Shown here: piece by piece, positions 1-40,978 of the stretch
Numbering within the stretch: position 1 is the first letter of the stretch
Layout: each line of letters begins with the position of its first letter
IMG/VR virus record: IMGVR_UViG_3300036760_000086
Coordinates: 1 to 40,978 of that record
Strand: one strand, 5' to 3'
DNA: 40,978 nucleotides
From: a virus
Made by a program: the position numbers and the translations under genes
Notes under the pieces: model-generated
The model's input: the letters and a program-made list of their open reading frames with translations, nothing else
Database searches by the model: none
Told to the model about the DNA's origin: nothing

Positions 1-103
1 CCTCTTACAGCAATGGTTGCAGGGCAAACAACTCACTGACCCCAAGTATCAGACACTCTTTAACTATCTAAACGTATATACCACTACCCTTGCTCCTATT
101 CTT
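1..103. repeat. Terminal direct repeat / circular overlap (left copy)
   Basis: Bases 1-103 match 40876-40978 except at position 75 (T here, A at the right end) and 84 (C here, A at the right end). An open reading frame passes through the join in frame, so the two ends are the same locus of a circular or circularly permuted molecule. The two differences change codons (Val/Glu and Thr/Asn), so they are read-end errors or population variants rather than an exact k-mer overlap. Confidence 0.93.
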
Positions 104-5049: not shown

Positions 5050-5781
5050 TTATTGAGCTTCGATACGGTCACGCCAACTCTCATAGAACGAGCACTTGGC
5101 AAACTCTGGCTGCAAAGTGGGTCGGTGCTTAAAGACGTATCGAGACACAATCATTGCGGAATGGGACAGGTTGATGTCCGAGTGCTCGGGCACAGGTTCG
5201 CCCGTTCTGCCGTTCACCCAACCGACCTGATTTTTTATCAAGGCAAGGAAATCATCGTCGGGGTATTTGTCGAGTATCTCCGCTTGCGCTTTCTCAACCT
5301 CGGCACGCACAATGCCTAGATTTGCCTCGGGGAAGTTGGCTGCTGTTATCCAATAGTGGTTTGACTGTAGCCCCATCATCTCCAACATGACTGGCAGTGT
5401 GTTGCAGATACGGTTGACCTCTTCCTGCACGAGCTTGTTGAGTTTCTCCTGAAATGCCTGCCCCTCATCACCGTACCGAGTGCTCCAAGCGTTGTGAAAA
5501 TAGGTCTTGGTGGCACTCGTAATAAGTGCCTCGCCTTGGTAGGTGTGCCCCATGTTTCCTGACACCCGAACGGCGATTGGTAGAAGCGCCTTCTTCTTAT
5601 CGCTGTAGTATTTCTCGCCAATATATTGCAGGTCGGCATGAGCACGACCAATCATCCAGTCTACATCTCGCTCCATGAACTTTTTGAAGTTCTCTTCTTT
5701 GCGAGCATCCTCTTTTACCTGTGCCTCTTCTGCTTCGATTTTCCGAAGCTGCTCCTGCAACTCTTCCTTGGTTTCGTTCAT
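5050..5781 (-). CDS. Hypothetical protein with N-terminal coiled coil, 243 aa
   Basis: Residues 1-38 are highly charged and heptad-like (KEELQEQLRKIEAEEAQVKE), followed by a mixed alpha/beta region with motifs such as DVDWMIGRAHADLQYIG and GNMGHTYQGEALI. No known family is recognised. It is bracketed by two copies of a 12-bp hairpin repeat (5021 and 5788) and lies just downstream of the SSB-like gene in the leftward operon. A DNA-metabolism or host-takeover role would fit the operon, but nothing in the sequence shows it. Confidence 0.7.
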   Translation of the reverse strand: MNETKEELQEQLRKIEAEEAQVKEDARKEENFKKFMERDVDWMIGRAHADLQYIGEKYYSDKKKALLPIAVRVSGNMGHTYQGEALITSATKTYFHNAWSTRYGDEGQAFQEKLNKLVQEEVNRICNTLPVMLEMMGLQSNHYWITAANFPEANLGIVRAEVEKAQAEILDKYPDDDFLALIKNQVGWVNGRTGEPVPEHSDINLSHSAMIVSRYVFKHRPTLQPEFAKCSFYESWRDRIEAQ

Positions 5782-5787
5782 AAGTTA

Positions 5788-5812
5788 TGTGTCGCACAAT
5801 CTATATTGTCGG
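5788..5812. repeat. Intercistronic hairpin repeat, copy 2 (TGTGTCGCACAA)
   Basis: Second exact copy of the 12-mer, placed between the stop of the SSB-like gene and the start of the 243-residue gene. On the leftward transcript GTC..ACAAT pairs with ATTGT..GAC around a short loop. It is 7 bases before the downstream ATG, so it could affect translation as well as RNA stability. Confidence 0.5.
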
Positions 5813-5820
5813 ACTCTTAG

Positions 5821-6396
5821 TTAGAAAGGAATGTCTGCTGGGTCAATATCTTCCTCGGGGTAGTCAGGTGCTGGCGCGTCAGTCTGTTTAGGCTCTTCCG
5901 TCTTTCCCTGTGAAACTTGCTTGCCACCCTTAATGCGCTCCACTATTTGGTCAGGGCTTGGCTTCTCTTTAAGCTCTGCAAGTATCTCGGGGCTTAGGGT
6001 TGTCTTTTTAGGGCTGGGGTTAAGAGTGTAGACCACCTCCTTGGTACCAGCGTTTTTAGCATTGAGGGTAAAGGCGTGGAGGAATGGTATCGAAAAGTCC
6101 CACTCAGGGTCTTGCTGTACGCCACGTATCAGCTTGACTATGACGTACGGTAGCTTGGCCTCTTTAATAAGACCGTCCTGCAACACCCACCCCACACCGC
6201 GTATTTTTACCTTTTTAGGGTCATCACCTTCGACTGCGGCGCGGTATTTACCGCCCTCATATACTTGGGGTAATGGTGCTAAATGCGATAGGAGAACAAA
6301 TTGCTGGGCACCCTCAACAATGTTGAAGTAGCCCTTAGCTCGCTCCTTTTTTTGCTTTTCATCTTGCTTATCTACCCAATCGAAGTTATCCGACAT
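5821..6396 (-). CDS. Probable single-stranded DNA-binding protein
   Basis: This 191-residue protein ends in an acidic, Pro-rich linker and the tip YPEEDIDPADIPF, closely resembling the DDDIPF tail with which bacterial and phage SSBs recruit repair and replication enzymes. Residues ~20-130 are beta-rich with aromatic residues (YFNIVEGAQQFVLL, GVGWVLQDGLI, WDFSIPFLHAF) that could form an OB fold, although I cannot assign it to a family from sequence alone. It shares an operon with a RecB/Cas4-like nuclease and a ParB-like protein, consistent with DNA metabolism. The C-terminal evidence is direct, the fold is inferred. Confidence 0.6.
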   Translation of the reverse strand: MSDNFDWVDKQDEKQKKERAKGYFNIVEGAQQFVLLSHLAPLPQVYEGGKYRAAVEGDDPKKVKIRGVGWVLQDGLIKEAKLPYVIVKLIRGVQQDPEWDFSIPFLHAFTLNAKNAGTKEVVYTLNPSPKKTTLSPEILAELKEKPSPDQIVERIKGGKQVSQGKTEEPKQTDAPAPDYPEEDIDPADIPF

Positions 6397-6590: not shown

Positions 6591-7262
6591 TTATAATGGT
6601 AGCCCTAGGGTTATATTTATGCCCATTGAGCTCAATTTGTCTGCAATCCCTTTGTCGTCTAGTTTCATCCACTCAAAGTAGGGATTATAATCTTCCTTTT
6701 CGTGCCACTTCTCACGTGCTACAAACACTGGTACTTGGCCTGTTGCCACCTGTGCTTCATATTCGTCAATGATTTTATCTACGTTACCAGTTACCTCCTC
6801 CTCAAAACATAGCACCCGGTAGTCATCGCTTGCCACATAGGCTATGGCGAACTTGTCATACCCAAGGGCCTTAGCATAGAGCTCGCCCTGTAGCTTGTGC
6901 CCAAGGCTTGGCCCTTCCTTTGCTTTGTACTTGAAGGCCATGTTGGTAGTGCTCTTTATCTCAATAGGGTACTCAAGCACCATATCTGCGATACCAGCCA
7001 CGCCACGGTAGGAGCACGCCTCTTGGTACCTTTTAGGCTCAACCCACTGGACAATGCGTTGTTCAACATCATTTCCACGTGCAAACTTGCGAAGGGTAAA
7101 CTCATCAACTGGCCTCTGTGGCACTTTGTAGTAGTGCAACATTTGCCACTGTAGGGGCCAACCTAGCCGGCTAGCACTAAGACGGCCTGACGGCTCTTTG
7201 TCTATAGCGTTTGCCAACACCTTTTTGTCTATAAGCTCTTGTATGGCTGGGTTTACTTTCAT
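6591..7262 (-). CDS. PD-(D/E)XK nuclease, Cas4/RecB-like
   Basis: The 223-residue sequence carries the core of the PD-(D/E)XK fold: Glu67 in GNDVEQRI (motif I helix), Asp93 in GIADMVLEY, Glu101-Ile-Lys103 in YPIEIKST and the following helix motif Gln125-xxx-Tyr129 (KLQGELYAKALGY). This matches the RecB-family exonucleases, including Cas4-type proteins, although the four Cys residues of the Cas4 iron-sulfur cluster are not present. Such enzymes resect double-stranded DNA ends for recombination; here it would partner with the SSB-like protein and RecA. The catalytic residues are visible, the precise substrate is inferred. Confidence 0.8.
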   Translation of the reverse strand: MKVNPAIQELIDKKVLANAIDKEPSGRLSASRLGWPLQWQMLHYYKVPQRPVDEFTLRKFARGNDVEQRIVQWVEPKRYQEACSYRGVAGIADMVLEYPIEIKSTTNMAFKYKAKEGPSLGHKLQGELYAKALGYDKFAIAYVASDDYRVLCFEEEVTGNVDKIIDEYEAQVATGQVPVFVAREKWHEKEDYNPYFEWMKLDDKGIADKLSSMGINITLGLPL

Positions 7263-7428: not shown

Positions 7429-8307
7429 TTATACAGTCTCAAGTACCTTTTTGATGAGTTTCTGGCATTCCTCAAGAGTTAGGACTTGTGCTGGAGTTAG
7501 TTTGATGTCAAGCAACTTCAAGTAATTGCGTCCATGTGAATTGACGTATTGCGCGTTGTTCATCATGTTACGAAGGTGATAAGCACCCTTAGCCTTTGAT
7601 TCTTTGTACAACTCAACAGTACCCATTTTTGAGCTCAAGAACTTCTCAATCATCTTTGGGTTCCTTGAAAATGAATCCTTAATCTTTATGACGTCACCCT
7701 TTTTACGTATATCTCCAGATGAAATAAGGTCAGTGATACGGTTCTCCAACTGCTTCTCTTGCTGACGGGTGAACTTTTCCTCAAGTTCCCCCTGTGTTTT
7801 AGTTATAGCAACCGACTTAACCGAGTTCATCACCAAAGCATAGTCAATCGGTATCTCATTTCTGGTGAAGTTCTCCTTATCTACTAGTGCCGCAAAGGCG
7901 GCGTATCGTCGTGCCGTATGTTCGCTTATACTAAGCAACTTCATTGCTTGCTGTAAGGACATCCCCATTTCATCGGCTATTTTTATAATAGCATTGGCCT
8001 TTTCAATAGGTGTCCAACTTTCATGTTGCTCCTGAATGTTGAACTGAATAATAAGGCGGTCAATCCCTTTCTGGGCTTTTTCTATAACCACAGGCACTTC
8101 AGTCAACTTTAATTCTTGTGCGGCACGGAATCTGCGCTCCCCATCAGTCAAAAGGTATTTACCAGATCCTAAATCCTCCACAGTTAGAGGACTACGGATA
8201 CCATGCTTCTTTATAGATTCTTTTAGAGAGAACATCTTATCTGCCGCGAAGTACTTTCTCGGCTGGTTTTCATCAGGTACTATCTTGCCTATCGGTACAG
8301 TAGTCAT
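7429..8307 (-). CDS. ParB/Srx-fold protein (ParB-like)
   Basis: Residues 1-80 form the ParB N-terminal domain: PDENQPRK at 11-18 (Box I) and TDGERRFRAA at 54-63 (Box II, the GERRxRA CTP-binding signature). A helix-turn-helix region follows (MSLQQAMKLLSISEHTARRYAAF, about 114-136), then a basic, coiled C-terminal half. ParB proteins are CTP-dependent DNA clamps that load at parS sites. No ParA ATPase was found in the window, so a role in plasmid-like partition is uncertain; phage ParB-like proteins may instead act in regulation or DNA handling. It is in the leftward operon between small membrane proteins. Confidence 0.8.
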   Translation of the reverse strand: MTTVPIGKIVPDENQPRKYFAADKMFSLKESIKKHGIRSPLTVEDLGSGKYLLTDGERRFRAAQELKLTEVPVVIEKAQKGIDRLIIQFNIQEQHESWTPIEKANAIIKIADEMGMSLQQAMKLLSISEHTARRYAAFAALVDKENFTRNEIPIDYALVMNSVKSVAITKTQGELEEKFTRQQEKQLENRITDLISSGDIRKKGDVIKIKDSFSRNPKMIEKFLSSKMGTVELYKESKAKGAYHLRNMMNNAQYVNSHGRNYLKLLDIKLTPAQVLTLEECQKLIKKVLETV

Positions 8308-17230: not shown

Positions 17231-17527
17231 ATGCCGATTGAATCGTACCTCGCCTCAATGATACTTCCTATTGTTTCTAAACCTGATGTGGTACGGATAA
17301 CCCCAACAACGGATGAAATGGGTGTACTTCTTTCCATTGACGTAGACAAGGATGATATGGGTGTGGTTATAGGCAAAGCTGGTGAAACTGCAAAGGCTAT
17401 ACGCCACATGGTACGTATTGCTGGCGTTAGGCAAAACGCACGTGTTAGCGTTAAAATAAATGAACCTGACGGAGGCCCACCACGTTACAGACGTAGTGAT
17501 GCAAGCGACAGGGATTTAATAATTTAA
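17231..17527 (+). CDS. KH-domain RNA-binding protein, KhpA-like
   Basis: Residues 28-78 form one type II KH domain: GVLLSIDVDKDDMGVVIGK, the GXXG nucleic-acid loop GKAG (48-51), then ETAKAIRHMVRIAGV and a final strand RVSVKI. This is close to bacterial KhpA (YlqC), a small RNA chaperone that affects translation and cell division. Host-type KhpA in phage is unusual; the particular sequence style (DEMGVLL...DDMG..IGK.G.TAKAIR) is one I associate with Patescibacteria genomes. It probably binds phage or host RNA. An acidic/basic tail follows the domain. Confidence 0.82.
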   Translation: MPIESYLASMILPIVSKPDVVRITPTTDEMGVLLSIDVDKDDMGVVIGKAGETAKAIRHMVRIAGVRQNARVSVKINEPDGGPPRYRRSDASDRDLII

Positions 17528-17771: not shown

Positions 17772-18011
17772 ATGTGGACAATACTGCGCCGATTGAAAAG
17801 GTTGTGGGAACTAAGTAAAGATTTGACAGTTGGGCCAAATGAATGGCCTACAGATGAAGAGGTTGATAAAGCTATAAACGAAGCCTTAAAAGACGACTCA
17901 CCCAAACCAAAACGACTAGCAACCATTGTAGATGTAGCACCAATAGACCCATTTCCAGCCGAAGAACCCCAAGATGACACTACCGAAAAGAAAACCACCA
18001 ATAACGTTTGA
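17772..18011 (+). CDS. Hypothetical acidic protein, 79 aa
   Basis: A basic amphipathic N-terminus (MWTILRRLKRLWELSK) is followed by an acidic, Pro-rich, probably disordered tail. The N-terminus could attach to membranes or bind RNA. The next gene begins within its 3' end in another frame. Confidence 0.55.
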   Translation: MWTILRRLKRLWELSKDLTVGPNEWPTDEEVDKAINEALKDDSPKPKRLATIVDVAPIDPFPAEEPQDDTTEKKTTNNV

Positions 18012-18120
18012 GCAAGCGCAAGGCTTTAACCGTGCAGAGCGCAGACGTCTGTCAAAGATAAATGGCGTGAAGATACCGGGTACCACCAAACCCTTTATAA
18101 AGTCTAAGAAAACCAAATGA
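17974..18120 (+). CDS. Very basic small protein, 48 aa
   Basis: ATG 17974-17976 to TGA 18118-18120. The product is rich in Lys and Arg (FNRAERRRLSKINGVKIPG, KSKKTK) and lies between an overlapping upstream gene and groES, with which it shares an ATGA. A nucleic-acid-binding role is likely but undefined. Confidence 0.55.
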   Translation: MTLPKRKPPITFEQAQGFNRAERRRLSKINGVKIPGTTKPFIKSKKTK

Positions 18121-18371
18121 TTAAGCCAGTTAATGGACACTTGTTGATAGAACCCCTAAAACATGACGCCTTTATTGCGTCTGAACGTGATACCTACCAA
18201 GAGATTGGTGTAGTAATTGAGGTTGCAGTTGAATTCCCAGAGCAATTTACAGTTAAAAAGGGGGACAAGGTGTATTTCGATAGCTGGCTTGCGGCTAAAT
18301 ACCCTAAAAATGACACTGAGTTTTACTGGCTCGTAAAGTGGGAGGACGTGCGGGCCGTCGAGAAAGTATAG
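18117..18371 (+). CDS. groES: GroES-like co-chaperonin
   Basis: An 84-residue GroES-family protein: MIKPVNGHLLIEPL corresponds to the first barrel strand, residues 14-30 to the GroEL-contacting mobile loop (DAFIASE in place of GIVL), then IGVVIEV, KKGDKVYFD and a C-terminal strand VKWEDVRAVEKV. It is shorter than E. coli GroES (97), mainly in the roof loop. It would cap the phage GroEL made from 19116. The last codons are duplicated downstream: DVRAVEK recurs at the end of the inserted nuclease gene, so the present 3' end appears to have been supplied by the insertion. It starts in an ATGA overlap. Confidence 0.82.
   Translation: MIKPVNGHLLIEPLKHDAFIASERDTYQEIGVVIEVAVEFPEQFTVKKGDKVYFDSWLAAKYPKNDTEFYWLVKWEDVRAVEKV
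18345..18365 (+). repeat. Recoded groES tail, copy 1 (DVRAVEK)
   Basis: These seven codons are the last part of the present groES. They encode the same residues as 18773-18793, but six of the seven codons differ, always only at the third base (GAC/GAT, GTG/GTA, CGG/CGC, GCC/GCT, GTC/GTT, GAG/GAA). The two copies flank the nuclease gene. Confidence 0.85.
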
Positions 18372-18373
18372 CT

Positions 18374-18802
18374 ATGGTGATGAAAGGACAAAAAAGAAAT
18401 ACCCCGTGGATGTTTGGAGATAAAAATCCTGCTAAACGAAAAGAGGTGAGAGAGAAGATAAAGAAAAAGGCAACAGGCAGAGTATTTACAAAAACGGCAC
18501 GGAGCAACGTAGCAAGGGGACATTGGAAGGGAGGTAGAGCTGAAACAGAAAGGCGCATTGAAATAAAAAAAGCAGGAAGGGTGAGGCCAGATAAATGCGA
18601 AATATGTCTTGCGCCAACATCAAGCCTAAAGAAGAGATTACATTTTGACCATGACCACCAGTCAGGAAAGTTTAGAGGGTGGATTTGCGAATCATGTAAC
18701 TTTGCTTTAGGGCACGCAAAGGATAACGTAGAAGTACTAGCCAAAATGATTATTTACTTAAATAACAACAAAGATGTACGCGCTGTTGAAAAAACTGGCT
18801 AA
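18374..18802 (+). CDS. Endonuclease VII/HNH homing-type nuclease inserted behind groES
   Basis: A 142-residue protein. Residues 10-37 (WMFGDKNPAKRKEVREKI) look like a NUMOD3 DNA-binding element, common in homing nucleases. Residues 75-130 are a recombination-endonuclease-VII-type HNH domain: CEIC, HFDHDH (90-95), RGWICESCN (101-109), LG and a terminal helix. The last nine residues, DVRAVEKTG, do not belong to the nuclease; they reproduce the GroES C-terminus and look like the displaced original groES end, now read in frame. The gene starts 2 bp after the groES stop. It is almost certainly a mobile, free-standing homing gene that targets the groES 3' end. Confidence 0.83.
   Translation: MVMKGQKRNTPWMFGDKNPAKRKEVREKIKKKATGRVFTKTARSNVARGHWKGGRAETERRIEIKKAGRVRPDKCEICLAPTSSLKKRLHFDHDHQSGKFRGWICESCNFALGHAKDNVEVLAKMIIYLNNNKDVRAVEKTG
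18773..18793 (+). repeat. Displaced original groES tail, copy 2
   Basis: This copy continues with ACT GGC TAA (Thr-Gly-stop) and overlaps the TTG start of the next small gene at 18786, which is how an intact groES would have joined its neighbour. It is therefore the likely ancestral end, pushed downstream by the nuclease insertion. Confidence 0.75.
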
Positions 18803-18911
18803 TCTCTTTCGACGCACTAGCGCATGTTGTGGTGCTGCGAGAGAATTTGTCTTTGGTTGGGACTATAGGCGAGATGATGTCGTGTGCACTAACTGTGGAC
18901 AACTATGCTAA
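18786..18911 (+). CDS. Zinc mini-protein with TTG start, 41 aa
   Basis: From TTG 18786-18788 the frame encodes a Lys/Arg-rich start and two Cys pairs (SACCGAA and CTNCGQLC), ending at TAA 18909-18911. The start lies inside the displaced groES tail, and the next gene begins at its last codons (ATGCTAA), giving the overlapping style of this operon. The non-ATG start lowers confidence. Confidence 0.45.
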   Translation: MKKLANLFRRTSACCGAAREFVFGWDYRRDDVVCTNCGQLC

Positions 18912-19129
18912 GTAGGCGATATCAGAACAGTGAGTGCAAGAACAATTACCTACATGACTTTAGATTCATTAGCCAGACACCCAAGGGATTCGTAGAACGG
19001 TGTACAAGGTGTGGAAAACAGATTTTATTCCCAGCAGACATACCCAATCACGTGTACCTCAGTTACCACATCCGCAGTGCATTACAAGCAAATGACCCAT
19101 TATTTAAGAGAGAATATGCGAAACGATAA
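18905..19129 (+). CDS. Small CxxC protein, 74 aa
   Basis: A basic protein with one strong pair CTRCGKQ and a further Cys near the start (SECKNN), plus His residues that could complete a zinc site. It overlaps groEL by 14 bases in a different frame. Function unknown. Confidence 0.55.
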   Translation: MLSRRYQNSECKNNYLHDFRFISQTPKGFVERCTRCGKQILFPADIPNHVYLSYHIRSALQANDPLFKREYAKR

Positions 19130-20711
19130 TTTACACACAGAGAACGTTCGTGAGAAGCTATTAGCTGGTATCAAAAAAGTATCCAACGCAGTTGGTGGCA
19201 CTATGGGCACAGGGGGTAGCAACGCCATTATTGAGGCTATAGAAAGCCCCGGACACTTAATGACCAATGACGGTTACAGCATTGCCAATAGCATTATGCT
19301 GTCTGACCCTATCGAGGAGATGGGCCGCAAGATACTTTTGGAGAGTATAAACAGAGCCAACAAAGCCTCAGGTGATGGCTCAAGCACTACCGCAGTACTT
19401 ACAGCGGCCATTATTGAGGAGGGCATGTTGCACTTGAAAGAGACTAACCCAATGGATATAAAGCGCAGTTTGGAGGCGTGTATACCAACCATTGAAGCTA
19501 GTATCGTAGAGCAAAAGGTTGACATTGGCGTTGAGGAGGTAGATAAGGTAGCTACTATAAGCTCCGAAGACCCAGACATTGGTAGGTTGATAGGCGATAT
19601 CTATAAAGAAATTGGCAAAGATGGCATTATCTATTGGGATATAAGCAAGACGGTTAAGGACACCTACACCATTGGCACTGGCATTACAGTTGAGGGTGCA
19701 GGCTACATTAGCCCTTATATGTGTGACGCCACCGAGGCAGGGCAGAACACTAACCAAGTACGTATAAAGAACGCAAGCATTTTAATTGTTAAGCAAAAGA
19801 TAACCAGTGCGGCAGACTTCAACGCTATTGGTGCAAGCCTGTTTGCCAAGGATGTTAAAGACCTTGTGGTCTTTTGTGAGGAGTATGACCCCCTTATAGT
19901 GCCTGACCTTGTGAAAACGCGCATGGTGCGTGGTTTTAGGTTCATCTTGGTGAAGATGCCAATCATCTGGAGAGACCATTGGTACGCTGATTTAGCCCTT
20001 GCTAGTGGTGCTAAGGTTATTGACCCATCCGTAGGCATACCACTTAAAGACCTAAACGAAAGCCACTTAGGCAAGGTAGGCAACATAGTGATAACCAAAG
20101 ACGACACCTTTGTTGACGGCATTGCTGACGTAAGTGCACACATTATGGCCTTAGAGGCAGATGGTGACGAAAATAGCCTTATACGTGCGGCACGTCTAAA
20201 GACAAAGACTGCACGTTACTTCGTAGGAGCCCAGAGCGACAGTGCACTAAGCTACCGCCGGCTTAAGGTTGAGGACGCTATAAGCGCAAGTTGGCAAGCA
20301 CTGCATGGCGGTATTGTGGCTGGTGGGGGAGTGGCGTTGTGCAATTCGTCTAGAAAACTCCCAGATACTACAGGAGGAAAGATACTTCTAAACGCCTTAA
20401 AAGCTCCTGCAAAACAAATATGCACTAATGCTGGGGTACTAGTAAGTGAGGGGATAATACCCCTAGTGGAAGTGCAAGAGGTTGGGGCAAAGATGCTTTA
20501 TCCTATAAGGGATAATCTTGGCTTTGACACCAGAACCAAAAAGGGTGTAGATATGTTTGACGCAGGCATTGTAGACCCAGCCAACGTAGTGCTCAACGCA
20601 GTAAAGAACGCAATAAGCGTTGCGGCTACAGTATTAACAGCCCAGACAGTAGTAACTCTTCCACGCGAAGAAGTTTCGCAGGGAAACTCCTATGCGCCCA
20701 ACATCAGGTAA
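19116..20711 (+). CDS. groEL: GroEL-like group I chaperonin
   Basis: A 531-residue chaperonin subunit. The ATP site GDGSSTT (86-92) matches GroEL GDGTTT, with the Asp kept; VEDA and VAGGGVAL (~402-407) match the second equatorial region, and AGIVDPANVVLNAVKNAISV matches the C-terminal equatorial helix. GAGYISPY corresponds to GYLSPYF in the apical region. Differences from E. coli GroEL are TMGTGGSN for TLGPKGRN, an altered APGFGDRR segment (MPIIWRDHWYAD) and no GGM-repeat tail. The ATG at 19116 follows AAGAGAGA. It should assemble with the phage GroES to fold phage proteins; independent of, or mixed with, host subunits is unknown. Confidence 0.9.
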   Translation: MRNDNLHTENVREKLLAGIKKVSNAVGGTMGTGGSNAIIEAIESPGHLMTNDGYSIANSIMLSDPIEEMGRKILLESINRANKASGDGSSTTAVLTAAIIEEGMLHLKETNPMDIKRSLEACIPTIEASIVEQKVDIGVEEVDKVATISSEDPDIGRLIGDIYKEIGKDGIIYWDISKTVKDTYTIGTGITVEGAGYISPYMCDATEAGQNTNQVRIKNASILIVKQKITSAADFNAIGASLFAKDVKDLVVFCEEYDPLIVPDLVKTRMVRGFRFILVKMPIIWRDHWYADLALASGAKVIDPSVGIPLKDLNESHLGKVGNIVITKDDTFVDGIADVSAHIMALEADGDENSLIRAARLKTKTARYFVGAQSDSALSYRRLKVEDAISASWQALHGGIVAGGGVALCNSSRKLPDTTGGKILLNALKAPAKQICTNAGVLVSEGIIPLVEVQEVGAKMLYPIRDNLGFDTRTKKGVDMFDAGIVDPANVVLNAVKNAISVAATVLTAQTVVTLPREEVSQGNSYAPNIR

Positions 20712-21030: not shown

Positions 21031-21261
21031 ATGCCAGAGGAACAGAAGGATATCACTAGTGAAACTGCACCAGAGTTGGTAGAAGAAATAAACACTTACG
21101 ACCCAACCCAAAACCCCAATGTAATTTCCCTTATAAAGCAAGACGATGGAAACTACATTGGCTATATGAACAAAGGAGGCAAGGTAGTGACCGCCAGACA
21201 AGCTGACCCTCACACCGTGCTAGAATTGCTTATAACCCACGATGGCACCCAAACTGACTAA
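21031..21261 (+). CDS. Hypothetical protein, 76 aa
   Basis: An acidic N-terminal half and a beta-rich second half (NVISLIKQDDGNYIGYMNKG). It overlaps the start of the small terminase gene by 20 bases, so it is probably co-translated with it. No motif identifies it. Confidence 0.58.
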   Translation: MPEEQKDITSETAPELVEEINTYDPTQNPNVISLIKQDDGNYIGYMNKGGKVVTARQADPHTVLELLITHDGTQTD

Positions 21262-21829
21262 AAAGCAAAAGGTATTTGTCGCGGAGTACCTAGAGACAGG
21301 CAATGGCACTAAAGCCGCCCTAGAGGCTTATGATATAGGTACTAAACATGGGACAGATGACCCAGAGAAGGTAGCGGCAGTAATGGCAACCCAGAACTTA
21401 GCTAAACTTAATGTAGTAGAAGCGATAAGGAATGGTAGTAAGGATGAGATGTTAGAGAAAGCACACAATAGTTTGTTAGATGCAGTGAGATTAGACTATT
21501 TTTTGTTTCCCGGCACCATGGATGACAAGGAGATAGATAACCACCTGACAGCCCAAGGCCTCACAGTTATTAACATACGCCCAACCATGAAGGGTAAGAT
21601 GGCCTTCTTTAGTTTGCCTGATGGTGCCTCACGTTCAAAAGGTTTGGAACTAGCCTATAAGATAAAAGGTTCATTTGCGGCGGAGAAGCACATCAACGTC
21701 AATGTTGAGGTCGAAGCAAACCCCGAAATAAAAGAGTTAACTCAAAAGTTAAATGACGTATACCGAGGAACAAGTGGCAGTGGCAATGGAGGGACTACCA
21801 GCCCTGTGGGTACTGAAGCATCAGATTAA
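21242..21829 (+). CDS. terS: Terminase small subunit
   Basis: The N-terminus (LTKKQKVFVAEYLETGNGTK then AALEAYDIG) is the helix-turn-helix typical of Terminase_2-type small subunits, which recognise the packaging site and stimulate the large subunit. The central region is helical and forms the likely oligomer, and the C-terminus is a flexible Gly/Thr/Ser tail. Position directly before terL, with a 77-base overlap in another frame, supports the call. Confidence 0.8.
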   Translation: MAPKLTKKQKVFVAEYLETGNGTKAALEAYDIGTKHGTDDPEKVAAVMATQNLAKLNVVEAIRNGSKDEMLEKAHNSLLDAVRLDYFLFPGTMDDKEIDNHLTAQGLTVINIRPTMKGKMAFFSLPDGASRSKGLELAYKIKGSFAAEKHINVNVEVEANPEIKELTQKLNDVYRGTSGSGNGGTTSPVGTEASD

Positions 21830-23423
21830 GAACGAAGCCGGCTTCCCCATAGAGTTTGAAAAGCACAAATACTTGTGGGATATATACAATGACCTATCCC
21901 CACTCCAAGTCCTCCTAAAGCCACCTCAGATTGGTGCAACAGTGATGAACACCCTAAAGTCTTTGTGGGTTGCTAAAAAGCTCCGTAAACAAATCATCTA
22001 TACGTTGCCCACCCAAGGTGATGTTCAAGATATGGTGAGTGGTAGCATTAACCGCATCATTGCCCAGAACCCCATACTAATGAGTTGGGTTAAAGACCAC
22101 GACACAGTAGAGCAAAAGAGTGTAGGCGATAGCATTATCTTCTACCGTGGCACCTTTACAAGCAAGCAAGCTATGATGGTTCCTTCGGCCCTTAACATAC
22201 ACGACGAGGTGGACGCTAGTGACCCAGACGTTATAACCCAATATGAGACACGCCTCCAAGCCCAAGAGGACGGTGGTAGCCGGTGGTACTTTAGCCACCC
22301 AAGCCTAGCTGGACATGGTGTAGACGTTTACTGGGAGCAAAGCGACAAAAAGGAATGGCACATCACTTGTCCTCATTGCAAAGTAGTACAAGTGCTAACA
22401 TGGCCTGACAACATAGACGCTAAGCGTAGGTGCTACATCTGTTCAACGTGCAAAGATGAACTACCAACTAGTGTGAGGATAAATGGATATTGGAAGGCAA
22501 CAGCAGTGGGCCTCTTCAGTGGGTACCACATAAGCCAACTAATGCTCTACAACAAACCTGCTTCGGTAATCATTGACGCCTTTAACGACCCCTTGAAGGA
22601 CAAACAATACTTCTACAACTACGTGTTGGGTTTACCCTATGTCTCAAGTGATGACCGTATTGAGCCAAGTGTAGTACTACGCAACTGCATTGACGTCATC
22701 AACGACCAAGAGGGTAGAACTGTTATAGGTGCTGATACAGGCCATGGCATACACTACGTTTTAATGAATAAGCAAGGGGTATACTTCTACGACCACGCTA
22801 AGGAGATAACCGCTAGTAAGACACCTTACGATGTTATCAAGGGTTACCTCAAACGCTTTGATAGGAGCATTGCTGTATTTGACCAAGGTGGCGACCTTAT
22901 CGGAGTACGACAACTAGCCCAAGAGTTCCCCGGCAGAGTGTTCCTTTGCTTCTACAACAAAGACCGAAAGACCTTTGAGCTTGTTGAATGGGGTACCGAC
23001 GATGACTATTGGAAGGTGCGGGTAGACCGCAACCGCATGATGACACTAGTGGTAGAACAACTGCGTGATATTGGCCGCATTCGCCTCAATGGTACTAAGG
23101 AAGAATGGCGTGAGTTCGCTAACCATTTTGGCAATCTTTATAGGGAGAAGGTTGTGGTTAAAGAGCAAAAGGGCAAGGACGACCGTAGCTTGTATGGTGC
23201 TGAATACGTCTGGAAGCGCAATGGCCCTGACCACTACGCCCATGCTTTGCTTTATGCCATGGTTGGTCTACAACGTGCAGGTGGAGGTGAACCTGCAAAG
23301 ATAGTTGGAGACAATGTGATGGCCGGCATACCCAAAGGCCAGATGGTTACTCCCTCAAAGGAAGCAAGCATTGTAGGTGGTATCAGTGCTGGGGAGTTCT
23401 CCAGTGAAAACCGAATATGGTAG
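21753..23423 (+). CDS. terL: Terminase large subunit, GpA-like
   Basis: A 556-residue packaging ATPase/nuclease of the lambda GpA type. The ATPase has a Walker A-like LLKPPQIGATVMN (54-66) and a Walker B NIHDEVD (148-154). A zinc-type insert (CPHC, then CSTC ~30 residues later) is present, as in GpA proteins. The C-terminal nuclease shows acidic motifs GADTGHG, FDQGGD and GPDHYAHALLY. It cuts concatemers and pumps DNA through the portal. The start is unclear: ATG 21753 overlaps terS by 77 bases, and ATG 21786 (Met12) is also possible. Confidence 0.88.
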   Translation: MTYTEEQVAVAMEGLPALWVLKHQIKNEAGFPIEFEKHKYLWDIYNDLSPLQVLLKPPQIGATVMNTLKSLWVAKKLRKQIIYTLPTQGDVQDMVSGSINRIIAQNPILMSWVKDHDTVEQKSVGDSIIFYRGTFTSKQAMMVPSALNIHDEVDASDPDVITQYETRLQAQEDGGSRWYFSHPSLAGHGVDVYWEQSDKKEWHITCPHCKVVQVLTWPDNIDAKRRCYICSTCKDELPTSVRINGYWKATAVGLFSGYHISQLMLYNKPASVIIDAFNDPLKDKQYFYNYVLGLPYVSSDDRIEPSVVLRNCIDVINDQEGRTVIGADTGHGIHYVLMNKQGVYFYDHAKEITASKTPYDVIKGYLKRFDRSIAVFDQGGDLIGVRQLAQEFPGRVFLCFYNKDRKTFELVEWGTDDDYWKVRVDRNRMMTLVVEQLRDIGRIRLNGTKEEWREFANHFGNLYREKVVVKEQKGKDDRSLYGAEYVWKRNGPDHYAHALLYAMVGLQRAGGGEPAKIVGDNVMAGIPKGQMVTPSKEASIVGGISAGEFSSENRIW

Positions 23424-23501: not shown

Positions 23502-25409
23502 ATGGCAGACCCAATGGACCCGTTTGCGCTGAATATTCGAGGCGTAACCGACCTTGTAGAAAATCCTATAAACAAAGTGAAGACTGGTTCAGGTCAATCT
23601 CCTGAAGGTGCAATCTCTGAGCGTTACGACAGCCTCTCTTTGGACATGACAGACGAAGAATTGCTTAAACTCCGGGACGAGATGGAGAAACAGTATGCCC
23701 CTTATGAAAGCAAGATGCGCCCTATATGGGAGAAGAACCTTGAGAGTTACTTAGGTAAACGTGCAGATGGACAATGGCTCAATGCCGAAGGTACTATAGC
23801 CGCCAACCTACAGTTTGAGGCAGAGGAGACCTACCTTAGTGCCGCTTTAGCCAAGAACCCAGAGCCTGTAGTGTGGGCAGACAACACCCCAGAAGGTAAC
23901 GCTATCGCCAACAGTGTAAAGACGATGTTGCAGTTCCATAGCGACCAACTATGCCTACGCCGCAAGCTAGCAATGATGGTGCGCCAACACAGTGTCTATC
24001 ATCTTGGCGTCATTAAGTATGGTTGGAACGAGAAGATAAACGACGTAGCTATAGAGAACCGCCGCATACAGAACTTTGTATTTGATAAGGAAGGATACGT
24101 TGACGCCTATGGTGATTTTAATGGTGCCCTAGGTGAGCGCATTGAGGTAACAGCCGAGAAGCTCATTGAGATGTTCCCCTCTGATGAGGACTACATTTCC
24201 ATCACAGTTGATGGGTACCTAGGGACTAAAGTTATTTACACAGAGTGGTGGAACCACGACGACACATTTACCTTTTGCACCTACAAGGAACGTGTTTTAG
24301 ACAAGCATAAGAACCAATACTTTAAGTACGAGGAACCAATCCAAGACCCTATAACTGGGGAGGAAGCCAAAGACCCAATAAACGGTGAGCCAATGATGAC
24401 TAAGGCTCGTAACCACTTTGCTACGCCAAAGAAGCCCTACACCTTCCTAAGCGTCTTTAGCTTGCAGGAACAGCCCCACGACATAACTGGACTCATTGAG
24501 CAGAACATCGCCAACCAGCAGATAATCACCAAGAGCACTGACCAAATAGACTTCAACGTAAGCACTAGCAACAATGGCTACGCTTACAGTGAGGACAACT
24601 TCAATCAAGAGACTGCCAAGCAAGCGTCTACCGCAAGGCGTAAAGGCAACCCAATCCTTATTCCCTCTGGTGGCCCTATAGACAAGGCCATAATGCCATT
24701 GCCAGCTATACCTCTTTCGGATAGCTTCTTTAAGCACCTTGAGATAACTAAGAATGACCTACGCAATAGTTGGGGCATACAGGGTATTGCTTCACAACAA
24801 CCAGACGAAGACCAGACAGCACGTGGGATGATACTCAACCAGAGCCACGACACGACACGAATTGGTGGTGGTATCGGCGACGCTATTGAGCAAGTGGCAG
24901 ACAACGCCTTTAACTGGCTCACCCAACTCTACTACGTCTTTTATGACGAGAAGCACTTCGCGGCCATCATGGGCAATGCTAAGGCAGTGGAGTACGTCAC
25001 TCTAAGCAATCAGGACATGGACCGCCAGCTCATTGTGAGCGTGGCACCAGATAGCCTGAAGCCAAAGGATGAGGTTACCCAGATGAACTTGGCGCAGGAC
25101 TTGTTTGTTAAAGGTGCAATAGGGCCTAAGACATTGCTTAAAATGCTTGACTTCCCTAACCCAGATGAAGCGGCCGCAGACGGTGTGCTATATAAAATGG
25201 ACCCAGCAAGCTACTTCCGTATTAACTTCCCAGAAGAATTTGCCCGTATGCAAGGTGCACAACAGCAAGGTATGGCTGAGGCGGCTGGTGCTGTGCCGGT
25301 GGGCGCAGGCCAACCACCTGAGATATCAAATGGTGAACCACCTAGCCCCGCAGGTTTAGCTACAGAGCCAGCAAGCGCGGCGTTGGCACAAGTACCCCTA
25401 CCTCAATAG
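23502..25409 (+). CDS. Portal protein
   Basis: A 635-residue protein following terL by 78 bp, the normal place for the portal. The central region alternates acidic beta strands and helices (AKNPEPVVWADNTPEG, HSVYHLGVIKYGWNEK) and the late helical part (PDEDQTARGMILNQSHDTTR) resembles the portal wing/stem of podovirus portals. The C-terminus is Ala/Gln/Pro-rich, as in portal barrel or tail regions. It would form the dodecameric DNA gate at one capsid vertex. Family assignment is from size, order and general features. Confidence 0.82.
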   Translation: MADPMDPFALNIRGVTDLVENPINKVKTGSGQSPEGAISERYDSLSLDMTDEELLKLRDEMEKQYAPYESKMRPIWEKNLESYLGKRADGQWLNAEGTIAANLQFEAEETYLSAALAKNPEPVVWADNTPEGNAIANSVKTMLQFHSDQLCLRRKLAMMVRQHSVYHLGVIKYGWNEKINDVAIENRRIQNFVFDKEGYVDAYGDFNGALGERIEVTAEKLIEMFPSDEDYISITVDGYLGTKVIYTEWWNHDDTFTFCTYKERVLDKHKNQYFKYEEPIQDPITGEEAKDPINGEPMMTKARNHFATPKKPYTFLSVFSLQEQPHDITGLIEQNIANQQIITKSTDQIDFNVSTSNNGYAYSEDNFNQETAKQASTARRKGNPILIPSGGPIDKAIMPLPAIPLSDSFFKHLEITKNDLRNSWGIQGIASQQPDEDQTARGMILNQSHDTTRIGGGIGDAIEQVADNAFNWLTQLYYVFYDEKHFAAIMGNAKAVEYVTLSNQDMDRQLIVSVAPDSLKPKDEVTQMNLAQDLFVKGAIGPKTLLKMLDFPNPDEAAADGVLYKMDPASYFRINFPEEFARMQGAQQQGMAEAAGAVPVGAGQPPEISNGEPPSPAGLATEPASAALAQVPLPQ

Positions 25410-27074: not shown

Positions 27075-28106
27075 ATGCCTCCGAATGTAACAGTCTCAAC
27101 CACAACGAACCAATACTTGGCTCCGTTCTGGGTAGACCAAGTTCTTCGCGACAACTACTTCTTTGGTCGCATAATGCAGAAGACCAAGAAGTGGAATGGT
27201 TCGCAGATGCTCTTCCCGATTAAATATCAGAAGGGCATTGCGTCAGTAGCCTTTAATGGTTACGACCTCCTACCGATCACACAACATCCAGTATCGGTCA
27301 ACATGACCTTCTTCCCTACCTTCATCGCAACCAACGTTTCATTGGCTGGCTCTGACCTCTCGGTCAACAGCACACCTATGCAGACGCTCAAGTTGATGTC
27401 GGTAACGATGGAAAGCCGTGCACAAGATGCGGCTGACGACGTTGGTAACTTCCTCCAAGGTGATGGCTCATCCTTTGGTGGCAAGGCACCGAACGGCCTC
27501 GCAAACACAATAGACAACGGTACAGTAGCACCAACGTATGGTGGGCTTTCACGCTCAACGTACACTGGCCTCAACGCAACTGTAACTGCATCGGGTGGCA
27601 CTATTTCGTTGGTGAAAGTACGTACTCTCTGGAATTCCATCTCTGATGGCCCAGTGATTCCTGACTTCATCATCACGGACTACACCACTTGGGGCTACTT
27701 CGAACAGCTTCAAACTCCCTACCAGCGCAACAACCAAGACTTCAGCCCTGCTGGACGTACGGTTGCACAGACCTCTGGTTACTCAGAGCAACGCTGGGAT
27801 GGCATGATAATCAGCCGCGACAAGAAAATCACGACTGGTTACTTCTACATGCTCAACCTTGAGGACACACTCTTCTGGTACGCACTTAAATGGTGGGAAG
27901 GAGATCGTGTTTCGCCAAAAGCGAAAGACATTGAGGGTAACGTGTACGAAGACAAGATCTACGCACCGGGCGATGCGTTCACTTGGACTGGCATGATCCG
28001 CGCTTACAACCAAGGTACGGTCAACGGATTTATGATCCTTGGCGGCCAGCTCATTTGCTTGGCACCGTTCCGTAACGGTGTACTCACTGGTATCGCAGGC
28101 GTTTAA
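27075..28106 (+). CDS. Major capsid protein
   Basis: A 343-residue beta-rich protein without long coiled coils, located after the scaffold and in the position of the coat gene. Features such as FGRIMQKTKKWNGSQMLFPI, a long middle domain with many Thr and Gly, and RAQDAADDVGNFLQGDG are typical of HK97-fold phage coats. It would form the icosahedral shell. A TAAATT box ends exactly 6 nt before the ATG. No decoration gene is proven, but two possible ones follow. Confidence 0.8.
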   Translation: MPPNVTVSTTTNQYLAPFWVDQVLRDNYFFGRIMQKTKKWNGSQMLFPIKYQKGIASVAFNGYDLLPITQHPVSVNMTFFPTFIATNVSLAGSDLSVNSTPMQTLKLMSVTMESRAQDAADDVGNFLQGDGSSFGGKAPNGLANTIDNGTVAPTYGGLSRSTYTGLNATVTASGGTISLVKVRTLWNSISDGPVIPDFIITDYTTWGYFEQLQTPYQRNNQDFSPAGRTVAQTSGYSEQRWDGMIISRDKKITTGYFYMLNLEDTLFWYALKWWEGDRVSPKAKDIEGNVYEDKIYAPGDAFTWTGMIRAYNQGTVNGFMILGGQLICLAPFRNGVLTGIAGV

Positions 28107-29314: not shown

Positions 29315-30121
29315 ATGTCCCGAATAACACAAAAGGGAGCGACTGGACCACTTGCGCTACAAGCAAATGGTGCGTTCCAGACCTCTACGGACTTGTCACT
29401 TAACACCCTCGTTGGGGCTCGGTGGGATTTGTCCGATGGTCGTGAATTAGTTCTCGTTCAAAATGCCGGTACAGCACTTGCACCGGGCAAATGGATTGGT
29501 GGCCCTAACCTTATTGCGGCTCACCAAGCATGTGCTACTGCGGCCTTCCAAGCCTATAGCAACAACGGCAATGTTCCAGCTAAAGTCACAGTGACTTTGG
29601 GTTCTACGGCAGTTACCGCTAACCAATATGCAGGAGGTTACCTCGTTGTAGCCTCAGGCACTGGTGCTGGTCAGACGCTCAAGATTGCGTCACACCCGGC
29701 GGCGGCTCTTTCAACAAACGTGGTTATCACGCTTGAAGATTCCCCAAACACAGCACTTGTGGCGGCAAGCTCAACAGTAAACCTTCTTTTGAACCCTTAT
29801 GGTTCAAAGAATGGTACTGACTTCACCACTTTTGGTGTAGTACTTGGACTTCACACAGGCTTCACTGGTTCGATTGCAGGTGTCTCGCTCTACCCAATAG
29901 CGGCTTCAACAGCAACTGTTCCAAGCTATGGTTTCTTAGTTACTAAGGGACTCACAGCTTGCCTCAATGATGCTAATACAACTGCTGGTCTAGACCTCAT
30001 GCCTTCAACGAACACTGACGGTGCGCTCATGACGTATGCAGTAGCAACGGGTGCTCGTGTTGGTACGTCAACACAAGCAGGTACAACTACAGCTTACGGT
30101 GCAATCACTGTTCAGCTCTAG
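29315..30121 (+). CDS. Probable head decoration / virion structural protein, 268 aa
   Basis: A beta-rich sequence with many Thr, Ala, Gly and no Cys-pair patterns (VTVTLGSTAVTANQYAGGYL, LVLVQNAGTALAPGKW). Its place among head genes suggests a decoration or capsid-stabilising protein. No family is recognised by sequence alone. Confidence 0.55.
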   Translation: MSRITQKGATGPLALQANGAFQTSTDLSLNTLVGARWDLSDGRELVLVQNAGTALAPGKWIGGPNLIAAHQACATAAFQAYSNNGNVPAKVTVTLGSTAVTANQYAGGYLVVASGTGAGQTLKIASHPAAALSTNVVITLEDSPNTALVAASSTVNLLLNPYGSKNGTDFTTFGVVLGLHTGFTGSIAGVSLYPIAASTATVPSYGFLVTKGLTACLNDANTTAGLDLMPSTNTDGALMTYAVATGARVGTSTQAGTTTAYGAITVQL

Positions 30122-38668: not shown

Positions 38669-39814
38669 ATGAAATCCTTTACTCAACTAGTAGGTAGCAC
38701 AACAGCAGGAGCAAACCCCGGCTCTTTTGCAGACCTCACACAGAACAACTCGTCTGTGAACGTTGCCTTGGGTGGAGTTTTGTGTGATGACCAGCACCGC
38801 TACCTAATCCAGAAGTATTTCGACAACGAAAGAACGTATACCACAATTACTATTGGGGCAGAGGATTTAACGCTTACAGGAGCACTCATCTCAGGTGCAA
38901 CCTCAGCAACCCTAACCAGCTCTTGGACAGATATTACATGCCAACAGCTTGTGGTATTTAGCAACTCTGAACAACGCACAGTAATTTTCACTCAAGGTTC
39001 AACCAACATATTTTGGCAGACGGGGCTTACTAGCAGTGCAACTGTAGATATAAGCACAATAGGTGTTCAGGCATACCCCATTCCAGCCAACGTATCAAAG
39101 ATAAAAAATGACACTATCACTGTGGGCCAGTTGGTATATACCCCAGCACCCGTACAGTCAATCCAAGAGTGGACAATGCTTAACGCTTTGCCCTACACCT
39201 CGGACATCCCTGCTTACTTCTACATTTACCAGAACCAAGTGATGTTTTGGCCGATACCCTCAACCAGTGGAAATATAATCACCTTTAACTACAAGGCGCG
39301 TGTTCCGAACCTTTCATACGCCGATTATGCGACTGGGACTATAGCGGGAACAGTTGGATCAAACTCAATAACAGGTACCGCTACCTCATGGAATGCAACT
39401 GGTGGGTATGCTCTGAACACTGACCTTAGTTTTGCCAACCTCTACATAAAAGCAACACCTCCAAAAGGCGATGGTTTTTGGTACCCCATACAGCGTTTCA
39501 CCACCGATACTGCACTAACTCTTAACCTACCAGTTGCCTATGCGCCTAGCCTATCAGGGTCAAGCTATATTATTGGTCAGTTCCCTCTTTTGCAAGAAGA
39601 CTTCCACGACATGATTGTGTATGGTGCGTTGTTGGTGTACTTCGGGTCTATAAAAAAGGACACCGACCAATACAAGCTCTATGAGGCCCTTTATATGCAG
39701 AAGCTCAACTTGCTTGAGGCATACGCAGGAACCAAGAGTGTAAACGTTGACCTTGGTGCCCAACCTATACCCTCCAATCCCAACCTCTTCCTTTTTGCAC
39801 CACCTAATCCGTAA
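38669..39814 (+). CDS. Head-tail adaptor (T7 gp11 / P22 gp4-like), 381 aa
   Basis: The protein shows the adaptor pattern: an N-terminal helical part (DDQHRYLIQKYFDNERTY), a strand-rich middle with an inserted domain, then LPYTSDIPAYFYIYQNQVMF followed by WPIPS, the FYI...F-PIPS signature of podovirus tail adaptors, and a terminal helix (DFHDMIVYGALLVYFGSIKK). It would bridge portal and hub. TAATATAAA lies 3 nt before the ATG. Confidence 0.72.
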   Translation: MKSFTQLVGSTTAGANPGSFADLTQNNSSVNVALGGVLCDDQHRYLIQKYFDNERTYTTITIGAEDLTLTGALISGATSATLTSSWTDITCQQLVVFSNSEQRTVIFTQGSTNIFWQTGLTSSATVDISTIGVQAYPIPANVSKIKNDTITVGQLVYTPAPVQSIQEWTMLNALPYTSDIPAYFYIYQNQVMFWPIPSTSGNIITFNYKARVPNLSYADYATGTIAGTVGSNSITGTATSWNATGGYALNTDLSFANLYIKATPPKGDGFWYPIQRFTTDTALTLNLPVAYAPSLSGSSYIIGQFPLLQEDFHDMIVYGALLVYFGSIKKDTDQYKLYEALYMQKLNLLEAYAGTKSVNVDLGAQPIPSNPNLFLFAPPNP

Positions 39815-39826
39815 TAATATAAATAT

Positions 39827-40978
39827 ATGGCTCAAGCAATTACTAACACAGTACCAAAAAACTCCTACGCGGGATTGTTTACTCCTCCTAAGACAAATTA
39901 TGGAGGTTTGCTTACTTCTCCCTCTTTTAACATGGGAGGACAAACTACTCCAACTACCTCTTTCACGGCGAAACCTTTGTTCCCATCAACACAGACAACC
40001 TCATCGGTCATACAGCCACTTGCATCGGCCCCACAACCTGTAGCAAAACCTGCAACGGTAGCCCCAGTGGCGTCTGCACCAGTAAATACAACTCCAGTGC
40101 TTGGGGGGGCAAATAGTGGTGGCACCATCAACCCAAACTACAATTTACAGACTGCCGGCTCTGCTACTGGAAGTGCTACACCAACACGGGGCTTATTTTC
40201 AGACGTTCTAACCTCCTTGGCTGGATATGGTACTAAAAACACTGAACTTGCTACAAATGCACAGCAAATTGCGGCCGACTATGGCAAAAGCATTGCCGAG
40301 ACTGGTGGTCTTGGTGCACGAATGATTGCAGGGCAAAAGAGCACAGGTACAACCCCAGTGGCGTCAGGCAATGCCGCTATTACGGCACAAAGTACTGCGG
40401 CTGAACAACAAGCACTTGCGGCAGGTGAAAGTGCCGCTCTACAGGGTGTACAGACTGGTATCTCGGCTAACCAAGCTGGTGCTAGCGCACTAGGCACAGC
40501 CGCAGGGTACTCACAACCACAAGTTACTGCGTATGGACAAACGAGCTTTAACCCAGTTACTGGAGAATTTGCTGGTGGCGGTAGTTTGCCGGCAGACGTG
40601 ATGCAACAGTATGCACAAATGGCCGCAAGTGGTCAGTATTCGGCCATTCCTAGCTTCATAACCTCCAACCCAGTCCTCAATGCCCAGTTAAACACTGCGG
40701 CAAAGGCCCTGAATGCCAATTACAACCCAGTTCAGGCCGCAGGTGCCTCAACGGTACTTCAGGGCCTACCAGCGTTGACAAGCGCGAATACGGCCGCTGA
40801 GGGCATTAAGAACACCATTAACACTTACTTGTCGGCCAACCCAACCCTTAACGCAAGCGACCTTGCGGCTGGGAACCTCTTACAGCAATGGTTGCAGGGC
40901 AAACAACTCACTGACCCCAAGTATCAGACACTCTTTAACTATCTAAACGAATATACCAATACCCTTGCTCCTATTCTT
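39827..40978 (+). CDS. Ala/Gly-rich virion protein, N-terminal part (continues at 2)
   Basis: The frame is open to the right end and continues at base 2 after the join, for about 454 residues total. The first ~130 residues are Thr/Pro/Ala/Gly-rich and disordered-looking; then Ala-rich helices (AAEQQALAAGESAALQGVQT) follow. It precedes the transglycosylase-containing protein, so an ejection or internal protein (T7 gp15- or P22-type) is plausible. TAATATAAA lies 3 nt before the ATG. Confidence 0.7.
   Translation, partial: MAQAITNTVPKNSYAGLFTPPKTNYGGLLTSPSFNMGGQTTPTTSFTAKPLFPSTQTTSSVIQPLASAPQPVAKPATVAPVASAPVNTTPVLGGANSGGTINPNYNLQTAGSATGSATPTRGLFSDVLTSLAGYGTKNTELATNAQQIAADYGKSIAETGGLGARMIAGQKSTGTTPVASGNAAITAQSTAAEQQALAAGESAALQGVQTGISANQAGASALGTAAGYSQPQVTAYGQTSFNPVTGEFAGGGSLPADVMQQYAQMAASGQYSAIPSFITSNPVLNAQLNTAAKALNANYNPVQAAGASTVLQGLPALTSANTAAEGIKNTINTYLSANPTLNASDLAAGNLLQQWLQGKQLTDPKYQTLFNYLNEYTNTLAPIL
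40876..40978. repeat. Terminal direct repeat / circular overlap (right copy)
   Basis: Right-hand copy of the end repeat; identical to bases 1-103 except for two positions, where it carries A instead of T and A instead of C. It lies inside the virion-protein gene, so it is not a packaging-signal-like non-coding repeat. Confidence 0.93.

Follow-up and report, generated by a model that had tools for sequence, protein, structure and literature searches.

A complete groE gene set beside the packaging genes of an uncultivated phage lineage, with a putative homing endonuclease lodged in groES

Phage-encoded chaperonins are known in several arrangements. The chaperonins of the jumbo phages EL, OBP, and AR9 are GroEL relatives (PMC9598537, PMC7185714), and soil viral GroELs have been reported (PMC8390657). 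According to the introduction of PMC7185714, which cites Marine 2017, some phages have both GroES and GroEL. The podovirus Calle measures 73 kb (PMC8776804), and the isolated Cellulophaga phage Calle_1 carries annotated Cpn10 and GroEL genes one gene apart. In Flavobacterium phage immuto and Bacteroides phage DAC16, a GroES gene (annotated in immuto, recognized by eye in DAC16) directly precedes GroEL. Phages with GroES and GroEL are thus already known, and the pair described here, from the 40,978-base virus record IMGVR_UViG_3300036760_000086 (analysed at full length and called the window below), is a variant within this known kind. An initial annotation of the window had presented a complete phage pair as exceptional, a view that is not supported, given these isolates with adjacent or nearly adjacent genes.

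The window encodes a Cpn10 (groES) and a Cpn60 (groEL) just upstream of its packaging genes (Table 1). The initial annotation placed a complete pair between positions 18117 and 20711; both genes are present there, but two intervening genes had been missed, namely a putative homing endonuclease and a zinc-finger-like protein (ZnF). The groEL product matches Pfam Cpn60_TCP1 (PF00118) with 113.9 bits (E-value 1.1e-32), over the curated cut-off of 34.3, and the phage GroEL PHROG at 9.7e-83. Judged by its sequence, it is a diverged member of the Cpn60 family and not the bacterial GroEL equivalog TIGR02348. Profile choice matters in this family, since Pfam Cpn60 by itself misses some members. In an alignment with E. 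coli GroEL, 149 of 513 residues (29%) are identical, TMGTGGSN is found in place of TLGPKGRN, MPIIWRD lies at the APGFGDRR stretch, and the GGM tail is absent. D52, D87, and D398 (E. coli numbering), which we take to be the ATPase aspartates of E. coli GroEL, are all present in the window protein, and they are shared by 55, 55, and 54 of 55 other family GroELs, respectively.

The groES product is over the curated cut-off of Pfam Cpn10 (PF00166; 25.2 bits against 21.1, E-value 1.7e-5) and matches the PHROG co-chaperonin GroES at 6.6e-6. Its sequence is very diverged: a search of the phage collection at E 0.01 returned no match, and a profile of nine rows found none in the PDB at 0.001. An AlphaFold2 (AF2) model has a mean predicted local distance difference test score (pLDDT) of 85.9, and the block of residues 21–30 is lowest (pLDDT 64), as expected for the mobile loop of a beta-barrel Cpn10. 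Foldseek comparison of the model with the PDB gave solved Cpn10s as the best matches (probability 1.00, best E-value 5.1e-4), with Thermus Cpn10 at the top (1wnr_C, TM score 0.72). The initial description of a GroES-like protein of 84 residues and a GroEL-like protein of 531 residues with core motifs, changed TLGPKGRN and APGFGDRR segments, and no GGM tail is therefore borne out by the family matches, the model, and the E. coli alignment; this alignment also shows the ATPase residues to be kept. Among four related loci (L003–L006), the ratio of nonsynonymous to synonymous substitution rates (dN/dS) for groES, ZnF, and groEL could be calculated in 9 of 12 comparisons and was 0.02–0.17, the other three being saturated at synonymous sites. 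In relatives, purifying selection acts on groES and groEL, both of which are intact and conserved.

The distribution of the genes was assessed by several routes. Scans based on GroEL yielded 4 loci at first and 11 later; 4 of these 11 carry distant GroELs of bacterial type and lack a related terminase. A GroES-based scan gave 6. In all 29 loci from a ZnF-based scan, groEL lies next to ZnF, and groES was detected in 27 of them; these loci were found through ZnF itself and include near-identical contigs. Since the earlier scans began from the genes in question, the census was redone from the terminase large subunit (terL). The best 80 of 266 and best 80 of 331 relatives were kept, and removal of near-duplicates (>90% shared terminase 5-mers) reduced 164 loci to 135. 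Loci were cut 8 kb from terL, a distance at which remote copies (as in L066/G005) would be missed. Of the distinct loci, 42 extend 5 kb or more upstream of terL, and 35 of these hold groES, ZnF, and groEL. Among the remaining seven, L066 has the trio elsewhere on its contig, L069 and L179 are cut at a contig edge, L168 and L170 hold groES and ZnF only, and L172 and L178 ZnF only. In total, 52 distinct related loci carry all three genes, which together with the low dN/dS indicates that the pair is not a chance occurrence. Among 75 distinct groEL-bearing loci, 52 have groES; the other 23 are cut by the contig edge, their first base lying no more than 167 bases from groEL or ZnF. The census shows that the complete groE set is a lineage trait, retained through much of the lineage. 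In a terminase tree of 71 rows, leaving out loci with <3 kb upstream or <400 residues of terL, groEL is present in all 35 rows of the half that contains the window, and the other half is mixed; the fewest groEL state changes are seven, some of them maybe produced by contig edges.

The trio is closely tied to the packaging genes. It lies on the same strand as terL in 51 of the 52 loci, and from the end of groEL to terL the median distance, profile to profile, is 1,583 bases upstream (n = 50). Gene order is groES-ZnF-groEL in 44 loci, groEL-groES-ZnF in 6, and ZnF-groEL-groES in 1; these counts omit L099, where the genes are on the other strand, and place L162 in the first class though terL lies between its ZnF and groEL. 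The gap between groES and ZnF profiles is ≤60 bases in 36 of 52 trios, and in L003–L006 the groES open reading frame (ORF) directly overlaps that of ZnF without any insert. Such short gaps and overlapping frames suggest one transcript and coupled translation.

The near-constant association raises the question of what ZnF contributes. C11, H17, C33, and C36 are invariant in nine of nine near relatives. In a wider, hand-chosen alignment, both CxxC cysteines are found in 40 of 40 rows. In another set of 36 wider rows, C11 is present in 28 and H17 in 34; the variability of the latter two makes the exact metal ligands uncertain. Zinc binding is predicted from this residue pattern, and the protein is best called zinc-finger-like. 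The family has no PHROG or NCBIfam match, Pfam matches are below cut-off only (best 0.0067 among nine members), and matches to PDB sequences are weak (best 0.041). Foldseek searches with the model returned nothing at 0.001 from the PDB or BFVD; the first BFVD rows have probability 0.99 with E-values of at least 0.027, and VIA-align Z scores are at most 2.5. Weak or absent structural matches of this kind do not show a new fold.

ZnF accompanies groES in 59 of 61 groES-bearing loci (all but L155 and L164), and the trio holds together through the changes of gene order. Both facts speak for ZnF as a third partner of the viral chaperonin, for example an adaptor that would deliver virion proteins or link folding with packaging, and against its being a mere neighbour. 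The idea that it is an obligatory chaperonin part is weakened by the terminase-centred finding of ZnF in loci without groE. In the clearest of these (L151, L152, L156, L172, L178, and L140), a small membrane-helix ORF stands right before ZnF; this ORF resembles by eye orfB, the gene before groES in the window, and GroES is absent according to a broad profile. In L160 another ORF intervenes before ZnF, and L154, L159, and L165 do not give the same picture. The simplest reading is that orfB and ZnF are an older pair of the packaging module, with groES inserted between them and groEL behind. We regard this neighbour explanation as on the whole probable and the third-partner role as unlikely.

The origin of the GroEL was examined in a tree of 87 rows (56 from the family and 31 others), omitting hits of <440 residues and 20 of 40 rows from two phyla represented by bins. 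The outside rows were E. coli, 10 rows each from the phyla of an Ignavibacteriae bin and a Jorgensenbacteria bin, 4 from IMG/VR, 5 from phage records, and Calle_1. Both trees (GroEL and terminase) come from quick searches, and their support values are of the Shimodaira–Hasegawa-like approximate likelihood-ratio test (SH-aLRT) only. A branch with 97.7% support splits the family GroELs from 30 of the 31 outside rows, the exception being the Calle_1 GroEL, which lands on the family side on a long branch. When the family was constrained to one clade, the likelihood was better and the constraint was not rejected (approximately unbiased test, p 0.897). The tree suggests that the window GroEL is probably old in the virus lineage. 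Two short, unannotated phage records, OR848861 (3,360 bases) and PQ520251 (6,240 bases), match as GroEL and are possibly host contamination.

We consider it likely that the groE set provides a private group I chaperonin, encoded beside packaging and head genes and folding virion proteins. The pair itself is likely functional, judging from its catalytic residues, purifying selection, and retention through much of the lineage. GroEL would hydrolyse ATP and GroES would close the chamber, which may be made together with packaging and head proteins during late infection. One or more virion proteins could then be folded by the pair, with the major head protein as first candidate, and a chaperonin of its own would make the phage independent of how well that of the host suits it. 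In sister phages with GroES alone, the protein may cap host GroEL, by analogy with T4 gp31. The private folding machine proposed initially, with a coat or tail protein as its putative substrate, thus keeps its core, a likely functional pair lying with packaging and head genes, and loses the exceptional status of the pair. The further suggestion that the host lacks a suitable chaperonin has no support here; Cpn60 is present in 40 of 41 and 34 of 39 genomes sampled from the phyla of two bins that hold distant terminase relatives, which are not known hosts of the window.

Several observations weigh against the private chaperonin. GroEL is under the NCBIfam equivalog cut-off (TIGR02348, 268.8 versus 582.1 bits), and groES matches the NCBIfam GroES models at 0.0023 or worse, far under their cut-offs. 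At E. coli L234, L237, and V264, apical positions that bind substrate and GroES, the window protein has N, G, and K in the alignment; either binding may be different or this helix may be misaligned. In the quick, unconstrained GroEL tree, the family was not recovered as a single clade. Finally, among 20 contigs of 26–44 kb, groES and ZnF occur without groEL in three (G031, G034, and G035), and five lack groE, with ZnF only in G026, G038, and G039 and none of the genes in G028 and G036. Hence the set is not indispensable lineage-wide. The other 12 contigs have all three genes, a share that is not a frequency because the 20 were hand-chosen from 31 to include eight of the nine without a Pfam Cpn60 match (the ninth, G041 or L130, has groEL by a profile built for this analysis). 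No end overlap was found in the 10 of these contigs tested, including the eight without the full trio, which may therefore be incomplete. When the GroES mobile loops of groEL-bearing groups were compared by eye with those of groups lacking groEL, no clear rule emerged.

An auxiliary chaperonin for stress or host takeover, with a role in host metabolism or in folding at large and no dedicated virion substrate, is unlikely. Such genes occur in large phages, and the GroELs of immuto, DAC16, YC, TY18, and L016–L019 fall among bacterial ones, as for captured host genes. The present family differs in having a distinct GroEL lineage, contigs near 40 kb, and a trio kept near the terminase on its strand. 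Very unlikely, in our assessment, is that GroEL or GroES is decayed or moonlighting, with GroEL as a scaffold or structural protein and no folding chamber; the altered P-loop (TMGTGG), altered apical residues, and missing GGM tail would fit, but the catalytic aspartates are retained almost without exception, dN/dS is well under 1, and groES accompanies groEL wherever a distinct locus is not truncated by a contig edge. A contaminating or chimeric bacterial segment, which a position of both genes inside one host lineage would have indicated, has a negligible probability, with no observation found in its favour, and a recent host capture is unlikely; both are rejected, as the GroEL falls outside the sampled bacterial GroELs and dozens of distinct contigs carry the same genes next to related terminases. 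For this phage lineage, with genomes near 40 kb, the private chaperonin would be a long-kept, packaging-linked set and not a stray captured host gene.

Table 1. Features of the window, in order of position.
Feature	Position	Strand	Basis
End overlap, left copy	1..103	.	right copy 40876-40978; 101/103 identical
KH-domain RNA-binding protein (KhpA-like)	17231..17527	+	NCBIfam PRK00468 9.4e-15, below curated cut-off
orfA, 76 residues	17539..17769	+	EYGELV..H motif by eye
orfB, 79 residues, before groES	17772..18011	+	RRLKxLWxLS start, ATIVD-type motif by eye
groES (Cpn10), 84 residues	18117..18371	+	Pfam, PHROG, structure model, purifying selection in relatives
Inserted groES tail (DVRAVEKV stop)	18345..18371	+	codons gac gtg cgg gcc gtc gag
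Endonuclease VII-type (DHDH, CX2C) putative homing endonuclease, 142 residues	18374..18802	+	PF02945, PHROG endonuclease VII
Displaced, probably native groES tail (DVRAVEKTG stop)	18773..18802	+	DVRAVEK peptide as in 18345-18371
ZnF, zinc-finger-like protein, 74 residues	18905..19129	+	conserved C/H residues; AF2 pLDDT 88.5
groEL (Cpn60), 531 residues	19116..20711	+	Pfam, PHROG, tree, alignment
Terminase small subunit	21242..21829	+	PF03592 4.2e-10
Terminase large subunit (terL), lineage marker	21753..23423	+	PF05876 7.1e-17; phrog_675 4.4e-82; relatives
Portal protein (weak)	23502..25409	+	phrog_156 8.5e-5; no Pfam family
Major head protein, first candidate substrate	27075..28106	+	phrog_9953 3.3e-31

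The other gene missed between groES and groEL is the endonuclease, which matches PF02945 at 2.1e-19 and also PHROG endonuclease VII (both searches used a start at 18338). It carries a CX2C-DHDH-R-CX2C-N motif of the DHHRN type (CEIC..HFDHDHQSGKFRGWICESCNFALG), a type described for homing endonucleases (PMC6083498), and its ORF reads in frame into the downstream copy of the groES tail. It is probably a homing endonuclease inserted with a groES tail of its own, and cleavage and mobility are putative properties read from the motif. The endonuclease would have invaded groES bringing its own tail; groES would stay whole, with its native tail pushed downstream and joined in frame to the endonuclease. 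Between the two tails, every one of the six D-V-R-A-V-E codons is changed synonymously. A point against insertion is that all six would differ by chance with a probability of ~0.07, and the argument thus rests on the duplicated peptide and on relatives with an empty site, such as L003–L006. The upstream tail is nearest, among the other family tails listed, to that of groES in L013 (contig of 64% GC), and it contains CGG, which is rare in the window genome (0.06 of Arg codons). The GC content at third codon positions of the endonuclease is low (0.36). The site between groES and ZnF is occupied by an endonuclease in 1 of the 52 trio loci, the window itself; phmmer found no relatives of it between these genes in the other 51.

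A self-splicing intron around the endonuclease was considered and rejected, as no Rfam family scored over its gathering threshold anywhere in the window. Relatives of the endonuclease occur elsewhere in family contigs (L312 970-1458, from the contig of L101, 41%; L111 9196-9786; L118 12436-12933; and L217 14184-14711). In another family member, L015, an HNH-like ORF recognized by eye (5483-5998) stands between ZnF and groEL, so endonuclease-like genes have struck the groE cassette at more than a single site. A 45-residue ORF in the window (18774-18911) starts within the displaced tail, overlaps the start of ZnF, and shows CC and CTNCGQLC motifs by eye.

The insertion has described counterparts. 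F-CphI, a homing endonuclease with an Endonuclease VII motif, has the same type of catalytic motif (PMC6083498). Mobile ORFs of fungal mitochondria with a foreign C-terminus also present an inserted tail, an endonuclease, and the native tail (PMC3630166); the setting differs, as the putative window insertion is in a phage groES. It would be the ‘bring your own C-terminus’ arrangement of fungal mitochondria in a phage gene. An HNH endonuclease concealed within a phage methylase gene is a related case (PMC11855218), and T4-type endonucleases splitting host genes have been described (PMC2988022). Among the titles and abstract beginnings listed from an open-access library, we found none on a foreign-tail endonuclease in a phage gene.

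The genes upstream of groES recur in relatives. ORFs similar to the KH-domain gene are found upstream of groES in L003, L004, L005, and L006, orfA-like ORFs before groES in L003–L006 and L013–L015, and ORFs like orfB precede groES in relatives; where groE is lacking, several loci have small membrane-helix ORFs in the place of orfB before ZnF. No family was matched by orfA in PHROG and NCBIfam scans or by orfB in NCBIfam. An ORF upstream of groES in L007 (4424-5212) resembles by eye an SPFH/prohibitin-type membrane protein. Long in-frame inserts, possibly inteins, are seen in terL of L063/L065 (the contig of L014; an open frame of 888 residues) and L110 (1512-4004; a match span of 2,493 bases).

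The match between the window ends indicates that the ~41 kb probably represent a whole genome, terminally redundant or circularly permuted, in agreement with the size first given. Our best reading is a tailed phage of an uncultivated lineage whose longest contigs measure 36–44 kb. None of the window structural ORFs scanned matched tail-tube or tape-measure families. Tail signals comprise a generic tail-protein family at 38669-39814 (8.3e-7) and a weak tail-assembly match at 29315-30121 (0.021). A podovirus-like virion is neither shown nor excluded by these ORFs. On the minus strand, the window also encodes a weakly matching Cas4-like nuclease (6591-7262) and a ParB-like partition protein (7429-8307). 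No near isolate was seen, the closest phage-collection terminases being 24–28% identical among the matches listed (30 of 483 records). Searches of genome contigs with ZnF gave no relatives among 88 stretches, and 3 of 121 with the terminase were relatives, in binned genomes at 39–42% identity, which is too distant for naming a host.

In comparison with known systems, the window shares with E. coli GroEL/GroES (b4143/b4142) the Cpn60 and Cpn10 profiles, the catalytic aspartates, and neighbouring genes with groES first, and it differs from bacterial groE in its conserved intervening gene, the divergence of its GroEL (29% identity, no GGM tail), and its separate branch. Among the titles and abstract beginnings listed from an open-access library, none concerned a groES-zinc finger-groEL set in phages. 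Calle_1 differs in that its middle ORF of 90 residues is not matched by the ZnF profile, and its GroEL is 29.2% identical and sits on a long branch. The immuto and DAC16 genomes are large (160–178 kb), the family GroES profile matched neither, and their GroELs fall beside those from the phylum of an Ignavibacteriae bin. The chaperonins of EL, OBP, and AR9 are, by description, active without a co-chaperonin, whereas the window phage encodes GroES. T4 and RB49 encode a co-chaperonin only (gp31 and CocO), whereas the window encodes GroEL too; its GroES model also matches gp31 (1g31_A, rank 16). The T4 gp31 arrangement is resembled by sister contigs in which groES but no groEL is seen, and these offer a natural comparison for asking under which conditions a virus retains a chaperonin or relies on that of its host.

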